This document shows positions 2,616-30,044 of a stretch of 47,922 bases of DNA, piece after piece. The first letter of the stretch is position 1; every line of letters begins with the position of its first letter. Below the pieces are notes generated by a model. It saw only the letters and a list, made by a program, of their open reading frames with translations, made no database searches and was not told where the DNA came from. Position numbers and translations under genes: made by a program. The DNA is from a virus, in IMG/VR virus record IMGVR_UViG_3300031652_000008, positions 1 through 47,922 of that record; one strand, given 5' to 3'.

Positions 2616-2825
2616 TTAAAACAAGTAAGACTCAATCCTTGCCCACTTGTTAGACAAGTTCTTAACCCTTCTTTCAGGGTTTTCAAGAAACAGGTTATAA
2701 GCACGGTTAAAATCTTCGACAGCTTCTTTTTTTGTGAAACCGCCAAAGTCATTACCTTTGGCTTCTTTTTCAAATCTATTTACAAGAGGAATGAAACCAT
2801 TTGTTATTTCTTCTATTGTTTTCAT
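2616..2825 (-). CDS. Small hypothetical protein with ribozyme-processed leader
   Basis: The 69-residue product begins MKTIEEITNGFIPLVNRFEK and is helical, with a middle segment (KKEAVEDFNRAYNLFLENPE) typical of a short alpha-helical hairpin. The start at 2825 follows the TTTTC-ATG context seen in all early genes of this block. Its 5' leader is the 3' product of the hammerhead ribozyme at 2846-2904, which would leave 26 bases upstream of the ATG. Function unknown. Confidence 0.72.
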   Translation of the reverse strand: MKTIEEITNGFIPLVNRFEKEAKGNDFGGFTKKEAVEDFNRAYNLFLENPERRVKNLSNKWARIESYLF

Positions 2826-2845
2826 GATTTTGTTTTTTTTGGTTT

Positions 2846-2904
2846 GACAAATACCCGGTCAATAAATAATCGGGTTTCGGCTATTGAAGCCTCATCAGTT
2901 TGCC
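2846..2904 (-). ncRNA. Type I hammerhead ribozyme
   Basis: Read on the minus strand. Stem I is GGCAAA (2904-2899) with UUUGUC (2851-2846), one G-U pair. The core is CUGAUGA (2898-2892). Stem II is GGCU-UCAAU-AGCC (2891-2879). The second core segment is GAAA (2878-2875). Stem III is CCCG (2874-2871) with CGGG, closed by the A15.1-U16.1 pair, and H17 is A at 2852. Every invariant hammerhead core position is present. Predicted cleavage is between 2852 and 2851. The 5' and 3' ends both leave through stem I, which defines type I. It lies between two early genes, so it would separate their messages. Confidence 0.85.
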
Positions 2905-2912
2905 TATCCTTT

Positions 2913-3068
2913 TTAGTCTTTATAAGCTAAATGATAAGCATTAATTCTGAGGGTTAGACTTGTTTTAGGATAAAGGTTTTTAAGCCATTTAATAGCATCT
3001 AATTTTGTTATGGCATCATATCTATCTGCTAATGTTTTTGCCATTTCTACGACTATTTTTGTTTTCAT
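2913..3068 (-). CDS. First early gene, 51-residue hypothetical protein
   Basis: The product (begins MKTKIVVEMAKTLADRYDAI, ends HLAYKD) is basic and helical. The start follows a conserved leader and the promoter at 3097-3128, making this the first gene of the early transcription unit. The stop codon is 9 bases upstream of the hammerhead. No family was recognised. Confidence 0.65.
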   Translation of the reverse strand: MKTKIVVEMAKTLADRYDAITKLDAIKWLKNLYPKTSLTLRINAYHLAYKD

Positions 3069-3096
3069 GATTTTGTTTTTTTGATTATTACTTCAA

Positions 3097-3128
3097 TAAA
3101 GATACAACATAATATTCAATTCTGCAAA
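3097..3128 (-). promoter_or_regulatory. Bacteroidota-type promoter, start of the early region
   Basis: Minus strand: TTTG at 3128-3125, exactly 20 bases, then TATCTTTA at 3104-3097 (consensus TAnnTTTG, one mismatch). It lies ~30 bases ahead of the first early gene. The segment 3129-3262 upstream carries no gene I can support; it is AT-rich and is the most natural place for regulator binding between the late terminator and the early promoter. Confidence 0.65.
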
Positions 3129-3262: not shown

Positions 3263-3307
3263 AAAAAAATAGCCAACTGTTTGAAACTTCAAACAATCAG
3301 CTATTTA
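3263..3307 (-). terminator. Rho-independent terminator of the late operon
   Basis: On the minus strand a long interrupted stem (AAATAGC with GCTATTT, then TTGTTTGAA with TTCAAACA) is followed by a run of seven T. It lies just downstream of the last late gene (3319-3588) and insulates the early promoter from late transcription. Confidence 0.88.
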
Positions 3308-3588: not shown

Positions 3589-4247
3589 GGCGCTGGTGTC
3601 ATTAATGAATCGAAAATAGTCTTAGTGTATGCGTATGTACCGTTAAACAACGTAACAGGAACATGCGTTTCCATATCCTGTTCAGGAGTCTCAAGGCGGA
3701 TTATATGGGCCGCCGCGTTCTCGATGTCGTTTAGGTTGCGGATCACCTGCGGGGCAATTTTCAACCCGGCGCTGTTGCCGTAACCCTCAAAAGCAGAATC
3801 GCCATCATTGACAGTTTTTTTATGCTTGTTTTCAATAAAAATAAAAACACGCCCGAAAAACAGTCTTTCAAGTTGGGCCTTAGTAACATTATCATTTTTT
3901 TGGATTATAAACTCCACGAAATGCTTAAATCGTGGCGTGCCTTTTGCAAGTATCAATTCATAACCTGCATTGATACTCATATCGGGCGCCTCATAATTGT
4001 AACCCTCCACCCCTGTTTCCAGTACATAATTGCTCCAAAGTATATCGGTTACTTTTGTTATCGTTGCGGCCCTGTGGTCATCAAGGTTTATGACTACGAA
4101 GTCTTTTTCTGCCCCTGGGATTGTGCTATCGGCACAAACCTCAAGTATATCCGCGTTGACTTCGGCACATTCTGCAAAAAATATCATCCGTTTCATAAAC
4201 TCGCTTACGAGAAAATAAAACGGGTTAAATAATTTTTTTAAATTCAT
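3585..4247 (-). CDS. Virion-associated hypothetical protein, 220 residues
   Basis: The start at 4247 shares its first base with the tape-measure stop (TGATG), which supports this start over the internal Met at residue 18. The sequence is of mixed alpha/beta type without signal peptide or membrane helices. It is translationally coupled to the tape measure gene, so it is probably a tail component. No family was recognised. Confidence 0.65.
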   Translation of the reverse strand: MNLKKLFNPFYFLVSEFMKRMIFFAECAEVNADILEVCADSTIPGAEKDFVVINLDDHRAATITKVTDILWSNYVLETGVEGYNYEAPDMSINAGYELILAKGTPRFKHFVEFIIQKNDNVTKAQLERLFFGRVFIFIENKHKKTVNDGDSAFEGYGNSAGLKIAPQVIRNLNDIENAAAHIIRLETPEQDMETHVPVTLFNGTYAYTKTIFDSLMTPAP

Positions 4248-7027
4248 CAGTTTGTTTCAATTTTAATTTCGTTCATTTTGTCTTTGTTCACCTCATCAAG
4301 TTGTCTAACGATGAGAACTGGTTGCCTTACATATTGTATTTTTGTTGAATTTTGTTCTGCTCTACGTGCAATGTTTTCACTTACAATACCTCCATCATAA
4401 TAACCATTATAAGTAGGTCTTAATAAATTAACAGCTTCTTTTCCACCCATTAAATTAACGTCCTGTTGCGAAAATACAACCTCCCCCTTGTGAACTATTC
4501 CGGCAGCTTCATATTTTCCACCATCACCTGTATATCCCCCCTCGTTAAACCCTGTTATGGCTGTTGCTGCAATACCTGCCACATTTGCCCAGGCATTAAC
4601 ACGGGCAAGTGTTGACATTGTGGCTGCATACGGCGGCCCTGCAACGCCAAATGAAATAGCGCTTAATTCTGCGGCTGTCAATTGAATAGCGGCCAATTGC
4701 TGTTTTAATTTAATAAATACCTCAGCAATTGCCAATCCTTTCGATAGCAAAAAAGCTGCTTTTGCAACGATTGTACCTTCCGCCGCGAATTCTTTTGTAG
4801 CATCTAATACGGATTGTCCTGCCTTTATACGTGAATCTGCGATGTCTTGTTCAGCTTCTGCAAGTTTTCTTTTTACATATTCCTCATATTTTGCGTTTTT
4901 TTCAGCTTCTTTGACCTTTTTTTCTTCATCACTTAATATTAAGCCTGAATATTTTTCAGCAAGTGCCCTCAGTGCGATCCATTGCGCCTCTGCTAGTATT
5001 AATTCATTTGCCCGCCTTTCTGCTTTTAATTCTTCATTATCTTCTTCTGATTCAGCAAATTCCATATTTTTTTCATACAATAAATCAAATCTCTTGTTTA
5101 TTGCCAGTTCTTCTTTTTCATAATTGGAAAGCGTCAATTCTAATAGTTCATCTTCAAAGTCAGCTTTTTGTTTTTTTAGTTTTAATTCTTCATCGTTTGC
5201 TTTTTTTAATGTATCGTAATATTCTTTATCAATTTTCTTTTTTTCTTCTGTTCGTTTTTTAAGTTCAGCTATTTGTTTTTTAGTTAATTCTTTTTCTTCT
5301 TCAATTAATTGCTGGTTTAATTCTTTTGCTAACTCAGCTTTTTTAAACATCTGCTCACTATCGGATTGTAAAGATTTACTTTGCAAAGATTTAATAATTT
5401 CAATCCTTCTATTTTCGTCATCAATTAACTGTTGGTTTCCAAGTTCAGTATATGTTTTTCGTGCTTCATAAGCAGATTTTAAATCCTTTTCGAGTTCAAT
5501 GGCATTTCTACCTCTTAGTTTTTGTTCAAAATCAGAAAATTTTTTCTCTTCTTCTTTGGTTTCTTCTAATATCTGCCGTATAGATTTATATTCGTCAAAA
5601 AATTTCGTTATCGGAACTAAAGTTCTTAGTAAAGATTTCCCAAATGTCTCACTAAAAGTCAATTCGCCTTCATTTATCAACGTCAATATCCTTAAAATAT
5701 CAGTCCATGATTGAACTAAATTTCTGGCAAATTCTGAGTAAGCTCCTGATCCTTCATTCAGCGAAAGCGTGAACCCTTCTTGTGCTGATTTTGCCTGGTC
5801 AATATCTCCAGACAGTGTGTCACGCATTATTAAAGCCATTTTTTCAGCAGCCCCGGCGGCGTTTTCGTATGCTATTGTATTTTGATTTAATACTTTTTCA
5901 TTTTCAGCTAATACAATCAATGAAGCTGCAGCCCTTTGTTTTACCAATTGTGTTGCTAATCCGAGTTTATCAGTCGAGTTGGCAACCATTTTATAAGCCT
6001 CATCAAGACTTATTCCCTGCTTATTTAATTGAATTAATATATTTCTTAAATCTGTACCTGCTTTACTTGCATCTATTCCCCTGTCGACTAATAATCCCAG
6101 CGCGGCGGCTGTATATTCAACACTATGACCCGTGACAGAAGCGGCTACCTGGGCGTTTGCCATTGATGTTTTCCACTTTTCCATATCAAGGGCGGAATTG
6201 GTAAAACTGGCAGCCATCACATCGACTACCCTTTGTGAATCCCGCGCCTGGAGATTAAAACCTCTTATTGTTGAAGCCGCTACGATAGCAGCCTCGCCAA
6301 GATCGGATTTTGTCGCTTCGGCAAGCAATAAAATCGACTCTGATGAATCAATAATCTGTTTTGAAGAAAATCCTAATTTCCCAAGTTCAACTTCCAGTTC
6401 CCCGACTTGTGACGCCGTGAATTTCGTAGATGCACCAAGATCAAGGGCTATTTTTTTTAATTTTAGAAAATCTTCATTTGTGGCTTTTGTAATTGCCCTG
6501 ACAGTTGCCATCTGTAATTCAAAGTCTTTGGTGGTTTTTAACATACCGCCAAAAACACGGATCAGACCTGACGCCCCTGCAAGAATGCCCATTGTTTTCA
6601 TCCACATGGAATTCAAACCCTGGAAAGCAGATTTATAATTTCCCACGTTCCTCCCGGCCCGGCCTGTTGTCATTTCCAACTGGCGGACTTCTTTTTCAAG
6701 GACATTAATAGAAGATTTTAACTTCCCCCCGACTGAGATATTTTCACGTTCTTCTTTTGATAGCCTGTCCCATTGATATTTAGCCTTAGCAAGCTGGGCC
6801 TGCATCTGCTTTAAGGAGCCGTTTTTTTCTTTGTCGATTGCAACATTAAGTTTTAAAAGCTGGTTTTGTGATTTAAGTTTATGGTTAAGTTCGGCATACT
6901 GCTTTTCCTCCTCCTGGGTGAGTCCCTTGTTTTCTTTGCGGGCTTCACGGAGCTTGTTTATTTCCGCTTTTAAAGCAGTTATGTCTTTGATATTCGTTTG
7001 AATATCTATTATTATTTTTTCTGTCAT
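4247..7027 (-). CDS. Phage tail tape measure protein
   Basis: This 926-residue protein sets tail length and occupies the tail lumen. The N-terminal ~130 residues are coiled coil. A small hydrophobic stretch is followed by the TIGR01760-type tape-measure core around residues 165-330 (motifs such as GASTKFTASQVGELEVELGK, then AATIRGF-like and ALDMEKWKTSMANAQ). A long charged coiled coil spans residues ~480-750 (KEEEKKFSDFEQKL and repeats of K/E), and an Ala/Gly-rich hydrophobic segment at ~770-840 is typical of tape-measure C-termini. The gene lies near the end of the late operon, after the fibre genes, which is not the usual order. The length suggests a tail of moderate length. Confidence 0.9.
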   Translation of the reverse strand: MTEKIIIDIQTNIKDITALKAEINKLREARKENKGLTQEEEKQYAELNHKLKSQNQLLKLNVAIDKEKNGSLKQMQAQLAKAKYQWDRLSKEERENISVGGKLKSSINVLEKEVRQLEMTTGRAGRNVGNYKSAFQGLNSMWMKTMGILAGASGLIRVFGGMLKTTKDFELQMATVRAITKATNEDFLKLKKIALDLGASTKFTASQVGELEVELGKLGFSSKQIIDSSESILLLAEATKSDLGEAAIVAASTIRGFNLQARDSQRVVDVMAASFTNSALDMEKWKTSMANAQVAASVTGHSVEYTAAALGLLVDRGIDASKAGTDLRNILIQLNKQGISLDEAYKMVANSTDKLGLATQLVKQRAAASLIVLAENEKVLNQNTIAYENAAGAAEKMALIMRDTLSGDIDQAKSAQEGFTLSLNEGSGAYSEFARNLVQSWTDILRILTLINEGELTFSETFGKSLLRTLVPITKFFDEYKSIRQILEETKEEEKKFSDFEQKLRGRNAIELEKDLKSAYEARKTYTELGNQQLIDDENRRIEIIKSLQSKSLQSDSEQMFKKAELAKELNQQLIEEEKELTKKQIAELKKRTEEKKKIDKEYYDTLKKANDEELKLKKQKADFEDELLELTLSNYEKEELAINKRFDLLYEKNMEFAESEEDNEELKAERRANELILAEAQWIALRALAEKYSGLILSDEEKKVKEAEKNAKYEEYVKRKLAEAEQDIADSRIKAGQSVLDATKEFAAEGTIVAKAAFLLSKGLAIAEVFIKLKQQLAAIQLTAAELSAISFGVAGPPYAATMSTLARVNAWANVAGIAATAITGFNEGGYTGDGGKYEAAGIVHKGEVVFSQQDVNLMGGKEAVNLLRPTYNGYYDGGIVSENIARRAEQNSTKIQYVRQPVLIVRQLDEVNKDKMNEIKIETN

Positions 7028-29102: not shown

Positions 29103-30044
29103 TTAAAATTTCCATCCCCTTTCTTTTGGTGTGACAATCCCGGTATGACCGAGTTTTGCCTCAGGATATAAACAAGGTGTTTCTAATCCTTCCAAAGTTC
29201 TCCATACATACCACAAATCTGCAAGAAAATGCTTTATCATTTTTCGCATTGCGGCAAAATGCCTGTGATTAGGTTTAGTATCTTTCCACATACATTCAAT
29301 CAATTTACCTTGCGTGTTATTTGATTTTGTCATTTTCTCACTTACTGAATAATCCTGTTTGGCCCGGTTGTAAACCTCTGAATAAATGTTTTTATGTTTG
29401 ATGAAACTTCCTGCCATTGAAAATAAAACAGTCCTTAATGTTTTATTACCACCTCCCGAAACGCCTTTTTCATACCTCTTATGGCTTGGTTTATCGTATC
29501 CGCAATAGGCCCAAATACTAGAAGCGTACCGAGCTTTTTCAATTTCCAGATAAACCAACAAATAAGCTACTGAAATTTTCCCGACTGCCTTAATTTGCAG
29601 CGCCTTTTGTGCTATTTCCGGAGCGCCTTTTGATAAGTGTTTTTCAATCCGCTTATCAATCTTGTATAACTGCTTTTTCAATGCCGTAATACTTTCCAGT
29701 AAAAAATTCAATGTTTCTTCATCCATATCATCAGTGCGGCGTTTCATTGCCTTTATCCGGTTTTCGGCTCCAAGTTTCTGTTTCATAATCTGCTCCCTGG
29801 CATCAATTAATATTTTTAAGTTTTTATGCCAGTCATCCCTGTTTCGTAACGTTCCATGCCGTTTCATGTGCTCAACAGGATCGACAATACGGGTGTTTTT
29901 GTCAACGTAAATACCACCGTTTGCTTTTGGATTAATTCTGTCAGTATCAACTAATGACATTTCACCAGCTAATACTTTTCCAGATAATGCACATCTACCG
30001 TTTTGCTTTCTGGAAATCCTTTGTTTTAATTCTTTTTTTGCCAT
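29103..30044 (-). CDS. tasH: TasH-like RNA-guided DNA-binding protein (HNH + Nop/IS110-type domain)
   Basis: The 313-residue protein has an N-terminal HNH-like module (residues ~12-63: QNGRCALSGK, LVDTDRINPKANGG, YVDKNTRIVDPVEHMKRHG). A helical coiled stretch spans ~65-155, and a C-terminal domain (~155-300) resembles the Transposase_20 part of IS110 transposases and the Nop domain (KAVGKISVAYLLVYLEIEKA, then YCGYDKPSHKRYEKGVSGGG and TLRTVLFSMAGSFIKHK). There is no IS110 RuvC-like DEDD domain. Tandem 9+9 arrays lie on both sides. This combination is that of the TIGR-associated (Tas) proteins of the HNH class. The usual DH of the HNH core reads D35-R36, so the general-base His may be missing. 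Alternatives are an isolated IS110 derivative or a decayed homing protein, both less likely given the arrays. Confidence 0.85.
   Translation of the reverse strand: MAKKELKQRISRKQNGRCALSGKVLAGEMSLVDTDRINPKANGGIYVDKNTRIVDPVEHMKRHGTLRNRDDWHKNLKILIDAREQIMKQKLGAENRIKAMKRRTDDMDEETLNFLLESITALKKQLYKIDKRIEKHLSKGAPEIAQKALQIKAVGKISVAYLLVYLEIEKARYASSIWAYCGYDKPSHKRYEKGVSGGGNKTLRTVLFSMAGSFIKHKNIYSEVYNRAKQDYSVSEKMTKSNNTQGKLIECMWKDTKPNHRHFAAMRKMIKHFLADLWYVWRTLEGLETPCLYPEAKLGHTGIVTPKERGWKF

Follow-up and report, generated by a model that had tools for sequence, protein, structure and literature searches.

Hammerhead ribozymes in phages and other genomes

Tandem hammerhead ribozymes of phages and prophages flank single genes, and it was proposed that they divide long transcripts into messages of gene length (Perreault et al. 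2011, PMC3088659). According to the same report, hammerheads of A. tumefaciens cleaved themselves both in vitro and inside E. coli, while circular products were sought in tandem cases and were undetected (PMC3088659). A 2017 review treated the role of prokaryotic hammerheads as an open question (PMC6155905). The element described here lies on the minus strand of a 47,922-nt viral sequence from IMG/VR (hereafter the window, meaning the whole stretch of DNA that was analysed) and belongs to this already known kind, phage hammerheads between genes with a proposed function in message processing. Like the tandem hammerheads of Perreault et al., it is found between co-directional phage genes, whereas the published tandem cases are multi-copy and the window has one copy (PMC3088659). 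The passages of that report on tandem hammerheads make no mention of a fixed distance to stop or start codons, or of agreement in stem I within a phage (PMC3088659).

Three other groups were compared. Schistosoma-type and newt type I hammerheads (RF00163) have the topology and the core in common with the window element, and a contact between stem I and loop II would be expected in both; however, they are eukaryotic repeats, and the RF00163 model does not score the phage class. The RAGATH-1-hammerhead (RF03152) shares the hammerhead core, although the window element stays far below its gathering score. Streptomyces phage Janus (L172 847-5489) carries seven type II hammerheads at Rfam level in approximately 5 kb, which, as in the phage class described below, occupy one gene gap each, always on the coding strand and just before an annotated start. 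Unlike the window, Janus is G+C-rich, and its ribozymes have the type II permutation and are detected by Rfam.

A complete type I hammerhead in the window

The minus strand from 2904 to 2846 reads GGCAAA CUGAUGA GGCUUCAAUAGCC GAA ACCCG-(13 nt)-CGGGU A UUUGUC, and its parts were assigned as follows.

2846..2904, minus: entire type I hammerhead motif, stem I open-ended (sequence and fold)
2899..2904, minus: stem I 5′ strand, GGCAAA (sequence)
2892..2898, minus: catalytic core CUGAUGA, C3 to A9 (sequence)
2879..2891, minus: stem II, GGCU/AGCC, 4 bp, loop UCAAU, class loop consensus U-N-A-N-U (sequence and fold)
2876..2878, minus: core G12 A13 A14, GAA (sequence)
2853..2875, minus: stem III, ACCCG/CGGGU (strands 2875-2871 and 2857-2853), 5 bp, 13-nt loop, closing pair A15.1-U16.1 (sequence and fold)
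2851..2852, minus: predicted cleavage site, H17 = A (2852) / U (2851) (position in the hammerhead fold)
2846..2851, minus: stem I 3′ strand, UUUGUC, six bases with which the downstream product would begin (sequence)

Stem I, formed by 2904-2899 with 2851-2846, has 6 bp, five of them Watson-Crick and one G-U. CUGANGA, GAA and the A15.1-U16.1 pair are intact, H17 is A, within A/C/U, and the three helices form a three-way junction open at stem I. A folding program returned the hammerhead as both the minimum-energy and the centroid structure (-16.6 kcal/mol, z -2.9). The conserved unpaired A before stem I, the AA after it and the U-N-A-N-U sequence of loop II, which may belong to a tertiary contact between the flank of stem I and loop II, are all present as well. 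A complete type I hammerhead at 2904-2846 was confirmed, and self-cleavage is predicted. The preliminary description of this DNA had named a type I hammerhead with every core position and three stems, open at stem I, and had placed the cut at 2852/2851; each of these elements was found where it had been placed, and the cut agrees with the position in the fold.

A strict descriptor, requiring an intact core and stems I, II and III of at least 6, 4 and 5 pairs, matched only 2904-2846 within the window, and Markov-1 simulated sequence with the dinucleotide make-up of the window gave 0 matches in 440 Mb. A covariance model of the class (R2), built from 16 other phage members with the window left out, scored the window ribozyme at 61.7 bits (E 2.4e-13). 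Stem III is just 5 bp with a 13-nt loop and stem I contains its one G-U pair, as might be expected of an inactive relic or of a hairpin merely resembling a hammerhead; however, all core positions are intact, the class positions outside the core are also kept, and the chance of such a match is near zero by the descriptor, so that we consider this the least probable of all the readings discussed here.

Rfam models are too narrow for the phage class

The preliminary description had put forward the Rfam hammerhead model as a check, and by its own criterion the outcome would speak against the element: no Rfam family, RF00163 (Hammerhead_1) included, attained its gathering score, and no valid hammerhead match to the element was obtained at a permissive E-value. 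The top sub-threshold hammerhead match was to RAGATH-1-hammerhead, at 17.5 bits, where the gathering score is 56.3. Eight other loci holding dozens of equally good hammerheads likewise had no Rfam match, and a near-consensus class member reached merely 19.9 and 15.8 bits, while the same scan did find the type II hammerheads in the Streptomyces phage. Since dozens of close relatives fail in the same way, the Rfam hammerhead models are too narrow for the phage class, and the fault is in the models and not in the window element. As a consequence of this blind spot, many phage genomes are without hammerhead annotation.

A class of phage hammerheads

Relatives were collected from IMG/VR with two patterns. 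The first constrained nothing but the core and a short segment of stem III, and returned 28 loci. Covariation counts were not taken as proof of the fold, because those sequences had been picked for pairing; a fairer test is that in 25 of the 28 loci from this pattern stems I and II are complementary too, so that all three stems are present. The second pattern, which included the AA after stem I, returned at least 120 loci, and 106 of 116 new viral loci were real hammerheads among the matches listed. Altogether, the IMG/VR scans gave at least 213 distinct type I hammerheads in at least 132 loci. Outside the core, the class is marked by a 6-bp stem I with an A before it and AA after it, and by loop II of the form U-N-A-N-U; the AA was built into the second search pattern. 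Among the matches listed, 52 of 132 loci had at least 2 copies, none had mixed strands, and same-strand arrays reached eight copies. The window holds a single copy, as do many class members, multi-copy operons being common but not universal.

The same pattern, applied to 257 billion bases of species genomes, returned 21 loci, of which 5 were real, and therefore the class mainly belongs to phages. PHROG functions of 125 downstream genes were mostly unknown, with a few matches to RNA polymerase, anti-restriction and MazG-like functions.

Three loci outside this setting were observed. In Mucilaginibacter, a chromosomal hammerhead of the phage class (L161 4579-4643) lies approximately 190 nt upstream of a transposase-type ORF, which resembles IS1595/ISXO2 by eye, with no gene start near the hammerhead. 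A Daejeonella MAG has a hammerhead (L150 3794-3860) followed by a structured-looking non-coding stretch instead of a gene, and in Legionella parisiensis a hammerhead (L149 5264-5321) precedes a RAGATH-13 ribozyme (5465-5559) by approximately 145 nt.

Position between stop and start codons

Across the class, among the matches listed, the position of the next ATG peaked at 22-28 nt past the cut. Expected numbers were taken from random same-strand positions within the same loci. On this basis, and among the matches listed, an ATG 13-37 nt downstream of the cut was found for 159 of 213 hammerheads (26 expected), an upstream stop codon at or inside stem I or the core for 168 (21 expected), and both together for 126 (3.3 expected, with a maximum of 8 in 100 trials), compared to only 10 with both when the hammerheads were read in antisense. 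The ribozyme often supplies the stop itself, as the UAA of stem I or the UGA of the core. In one locus (L028), eight hammerheads within approximately 5.4 kb occupy most gene boundaries of one block. The window fits the rule, with co-directional genes, 8 nt between the stop and stem I, and a leader of 26 nt, as the preliminary description had it in placing the site directly after the stop of the 51-residue gene, ahead of the 69-residue gene, with a leader of 26 bases.

Structure, class, position rule and strand are thus computed observations. Because the layout of stop, ribozyme and start recurs in more than 100 other phage sequences, long messages are probably sliced into single-gene messages, and the rule, with a stop touching or inside the ribozyme, a start approximately 26 nt past the cut and arrays at successive gene boundaries, turns message processing into a specific testable claim. 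The same rule can also mirror simple packing into the gap, with no function implied.

Selection could alternatively act mainly on the upstream product, whose compact hairpin 3′ end and cyclic phosphate would slow 3′ exonucleases, with the downstream leader incidental. With the type I topology, stems II and III would stay with the upstream product, and the upstream stop codon lies within the ribozyme itself in 107 of 213 cases among the matches listed, by which upstream gene and ribozyme are fused. However, the length of the leader is likewise confined to a narrow range (mode 22-28 nt), copies from one phage resemble each other in leader and stem I but not in the 5′ flank, which argues for the downstream side, and the type II arrays of Janus occupy the same gaps yet would divide the motif differently. 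We regard this alternative as possible but rather unlikely.

The window ribozyme and its neighboring genes

The main genes of the window are on the minus strand, and its portal protein matches those of phages of Bacteroidota (Polaribacter, Bacteroides) among others. A transposase-like gene lies between the portal and terminase genes (29103-30044) and is probably an inserted element. The surroundings of the ribozyme, in the direction of transcription, are the following.

3267..3306, minus: terminator-like hairpin, 18 pairs then a T run, closing the preceding transcription unit
3097..3128, minus: Bacteroidota-type promoter match, TTTG-N20-TATCTTTA, weak alone (11 matches in the window, 4.7 expected)
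2913..3068, minus: upstream gene, 51 aa, no known family, stop 8 nt before stem I
2826..2851, minus: 26-nt leader of the downstream message, 5′-OH predicted, A-rich before the ATG (class mode 22-28 nt)
2616..2825, minus: downstream gene, 69 aa, no known family, ATG at 2825

Since the terminator-like hairpin and the promoter match precede the 51-aa gene, the ribozyme looks to be in the first gene gap of an apparent new transcription unit. The gene pair leads from there toward a RecT-like gene, and the label "early", used in the preliminary description, is reasonable on these grounds.

The 69-aa and 220-aa genes had no homologues in IMG/VR, the homologue search there gave no close relative with the identical flanking gene pair, no DNA relatives of the window were found in INPHARED, and no hammerhead was found in the RecT relatives (L029-L032). 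Relatives of the DnaB of the window have hammerheads upstream of DnaB and in the same direction, and in distantly related phages whose TerL, DnaB or neighboring gene is similar (L040, L060, L065, L077, L098, L124) a hammerhead lies upstream of those genes.

From this position and from the conservation of the class, we think it likely that the window hammerhead is an intercistronic processing site heading an early operon. RNA polymerase would start near 3090 and produce a single message spanning both genes (51 aa and 69 aa) with the ribozyme between them; the ribozyme would fold within the gap from stop to start and cut after A17. The upstream message would then finish with a 2′,3′-cyclic phosphate behind stems II and III, its 3′ end being protected by hairpins in place of a terminator, while the downstream message would begin with a short unstructured 26-nt 5′-OH leader with an A-rich start region. 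Expression of the genes would be uncoupled, each piece being translated and decaying separately. It is position and conservation that suggest intracellular cleavage, the chemistry of the resulting ends and any effect on stability or translation. Several points stand against such a role in the window: having one copy only, it cannot alone release a single-gene unit, the Rfam models give no score, the flanking genes are without a known family, and no close relative was seen to have this gene pair.

Agreement of stem I within a phage

Before hammerheads of one phage were compared, probable recent duplicates were removed along with related contigs; the following values hold for the class loci among the matches listed. 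The outer three bases of stem I agreed within a phage at 0.76, compared to 0.48 when shuffled (z 8.5, and 7.8 under shuffling within G+C strata). Stem II had no such agreement (z 0.4, and 0.1 within G+C strata), and that of stem III was weaker than in stem I (z 3.6, then 2.1 within G+C strata). The leader agreed as well (z 6.7), while the 5′ flank did not. An identical 6-nt stem I was found in 50 of 129 same-phage pairs and in 1397 of 15271 between-phage pairs.

This agreement reflects either slower change of stem I than of stem II within a lineage or a phage-specific tag on the 5′ ends of messages. In the extended form of the latter, stem I would be a shared end tag, by which all processed messages start alike and units end in the matching strand; the units may rebuild the ribozyme from their two ends, become religated and circulate as stable RNAs of one gene each, or a phage factor may recognise them. 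We hold this to be very unlikely. Still less likely is that the elements serve to make rings or relays, in which the two ends of a gene-length unit released by two neighbors would make a hammerhead again, and the unit would be religated to a circle or swap ends with other units. A stem I common to the hammerheads of one phage would let the ends of released units pair again; on the other side, the window has a single copy, circular products were undetected in the published tandem cases (PMC3088659), and common descent with slow change of stem I gives the identical pattern. A phage-encoded end-joining system was also considered and dropped, because RtcB and the AAA_33 end-healing kinase were absent in 25 of 25 hammerhead phage records, which equally speaks against rings and relays.

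Within the open-licence texts that formed the literature scope, the class-level position rule, the gap in Rfam and the agreement of stem I are apparently new, and an earlier description in other texts is possible.

Hammerheads in cultured phages

The position rule can be tested in cultured phages, namely the Flavobacterium elemo phages and the pelagiphage HTVC019P. In phages elemoA, elemoB and elemoC (host Flavobacterium sp. BAL314), an unannotated hammerhead was found (L170 3993-4060), which has the identical stem I GGCAAA/UUUGUC followed by AAAC, the same core, a 4-bp stem II with a U-N-A-N-U loop, and a location ahead of a small gene, as in the window. In contrast to the window, stem III is different, H17 is C, and the flanking genes are unrelated. 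Some phage gene starts have been called inside ribozymes, and elemoB is an example: its deposited gene (L170 4035-4331) has a GTG start at 4035 inside the hammerhead, whereas an in-frame ATG at 4077 leaves a 28-nt leader from the predicted cut. The deposited GTG start is probably wrong.

In the Pelagibacter phages HTVC019P, HTVC131P and EXVC012P, a hammerhead lies upstream of the MarR, integrase and RNA polymerase genes. That of HTVC019P (L171 2944-3014) is followed by approximately 395 nt without an annotated gene, in which the only frame right after the cut has 15 codons.
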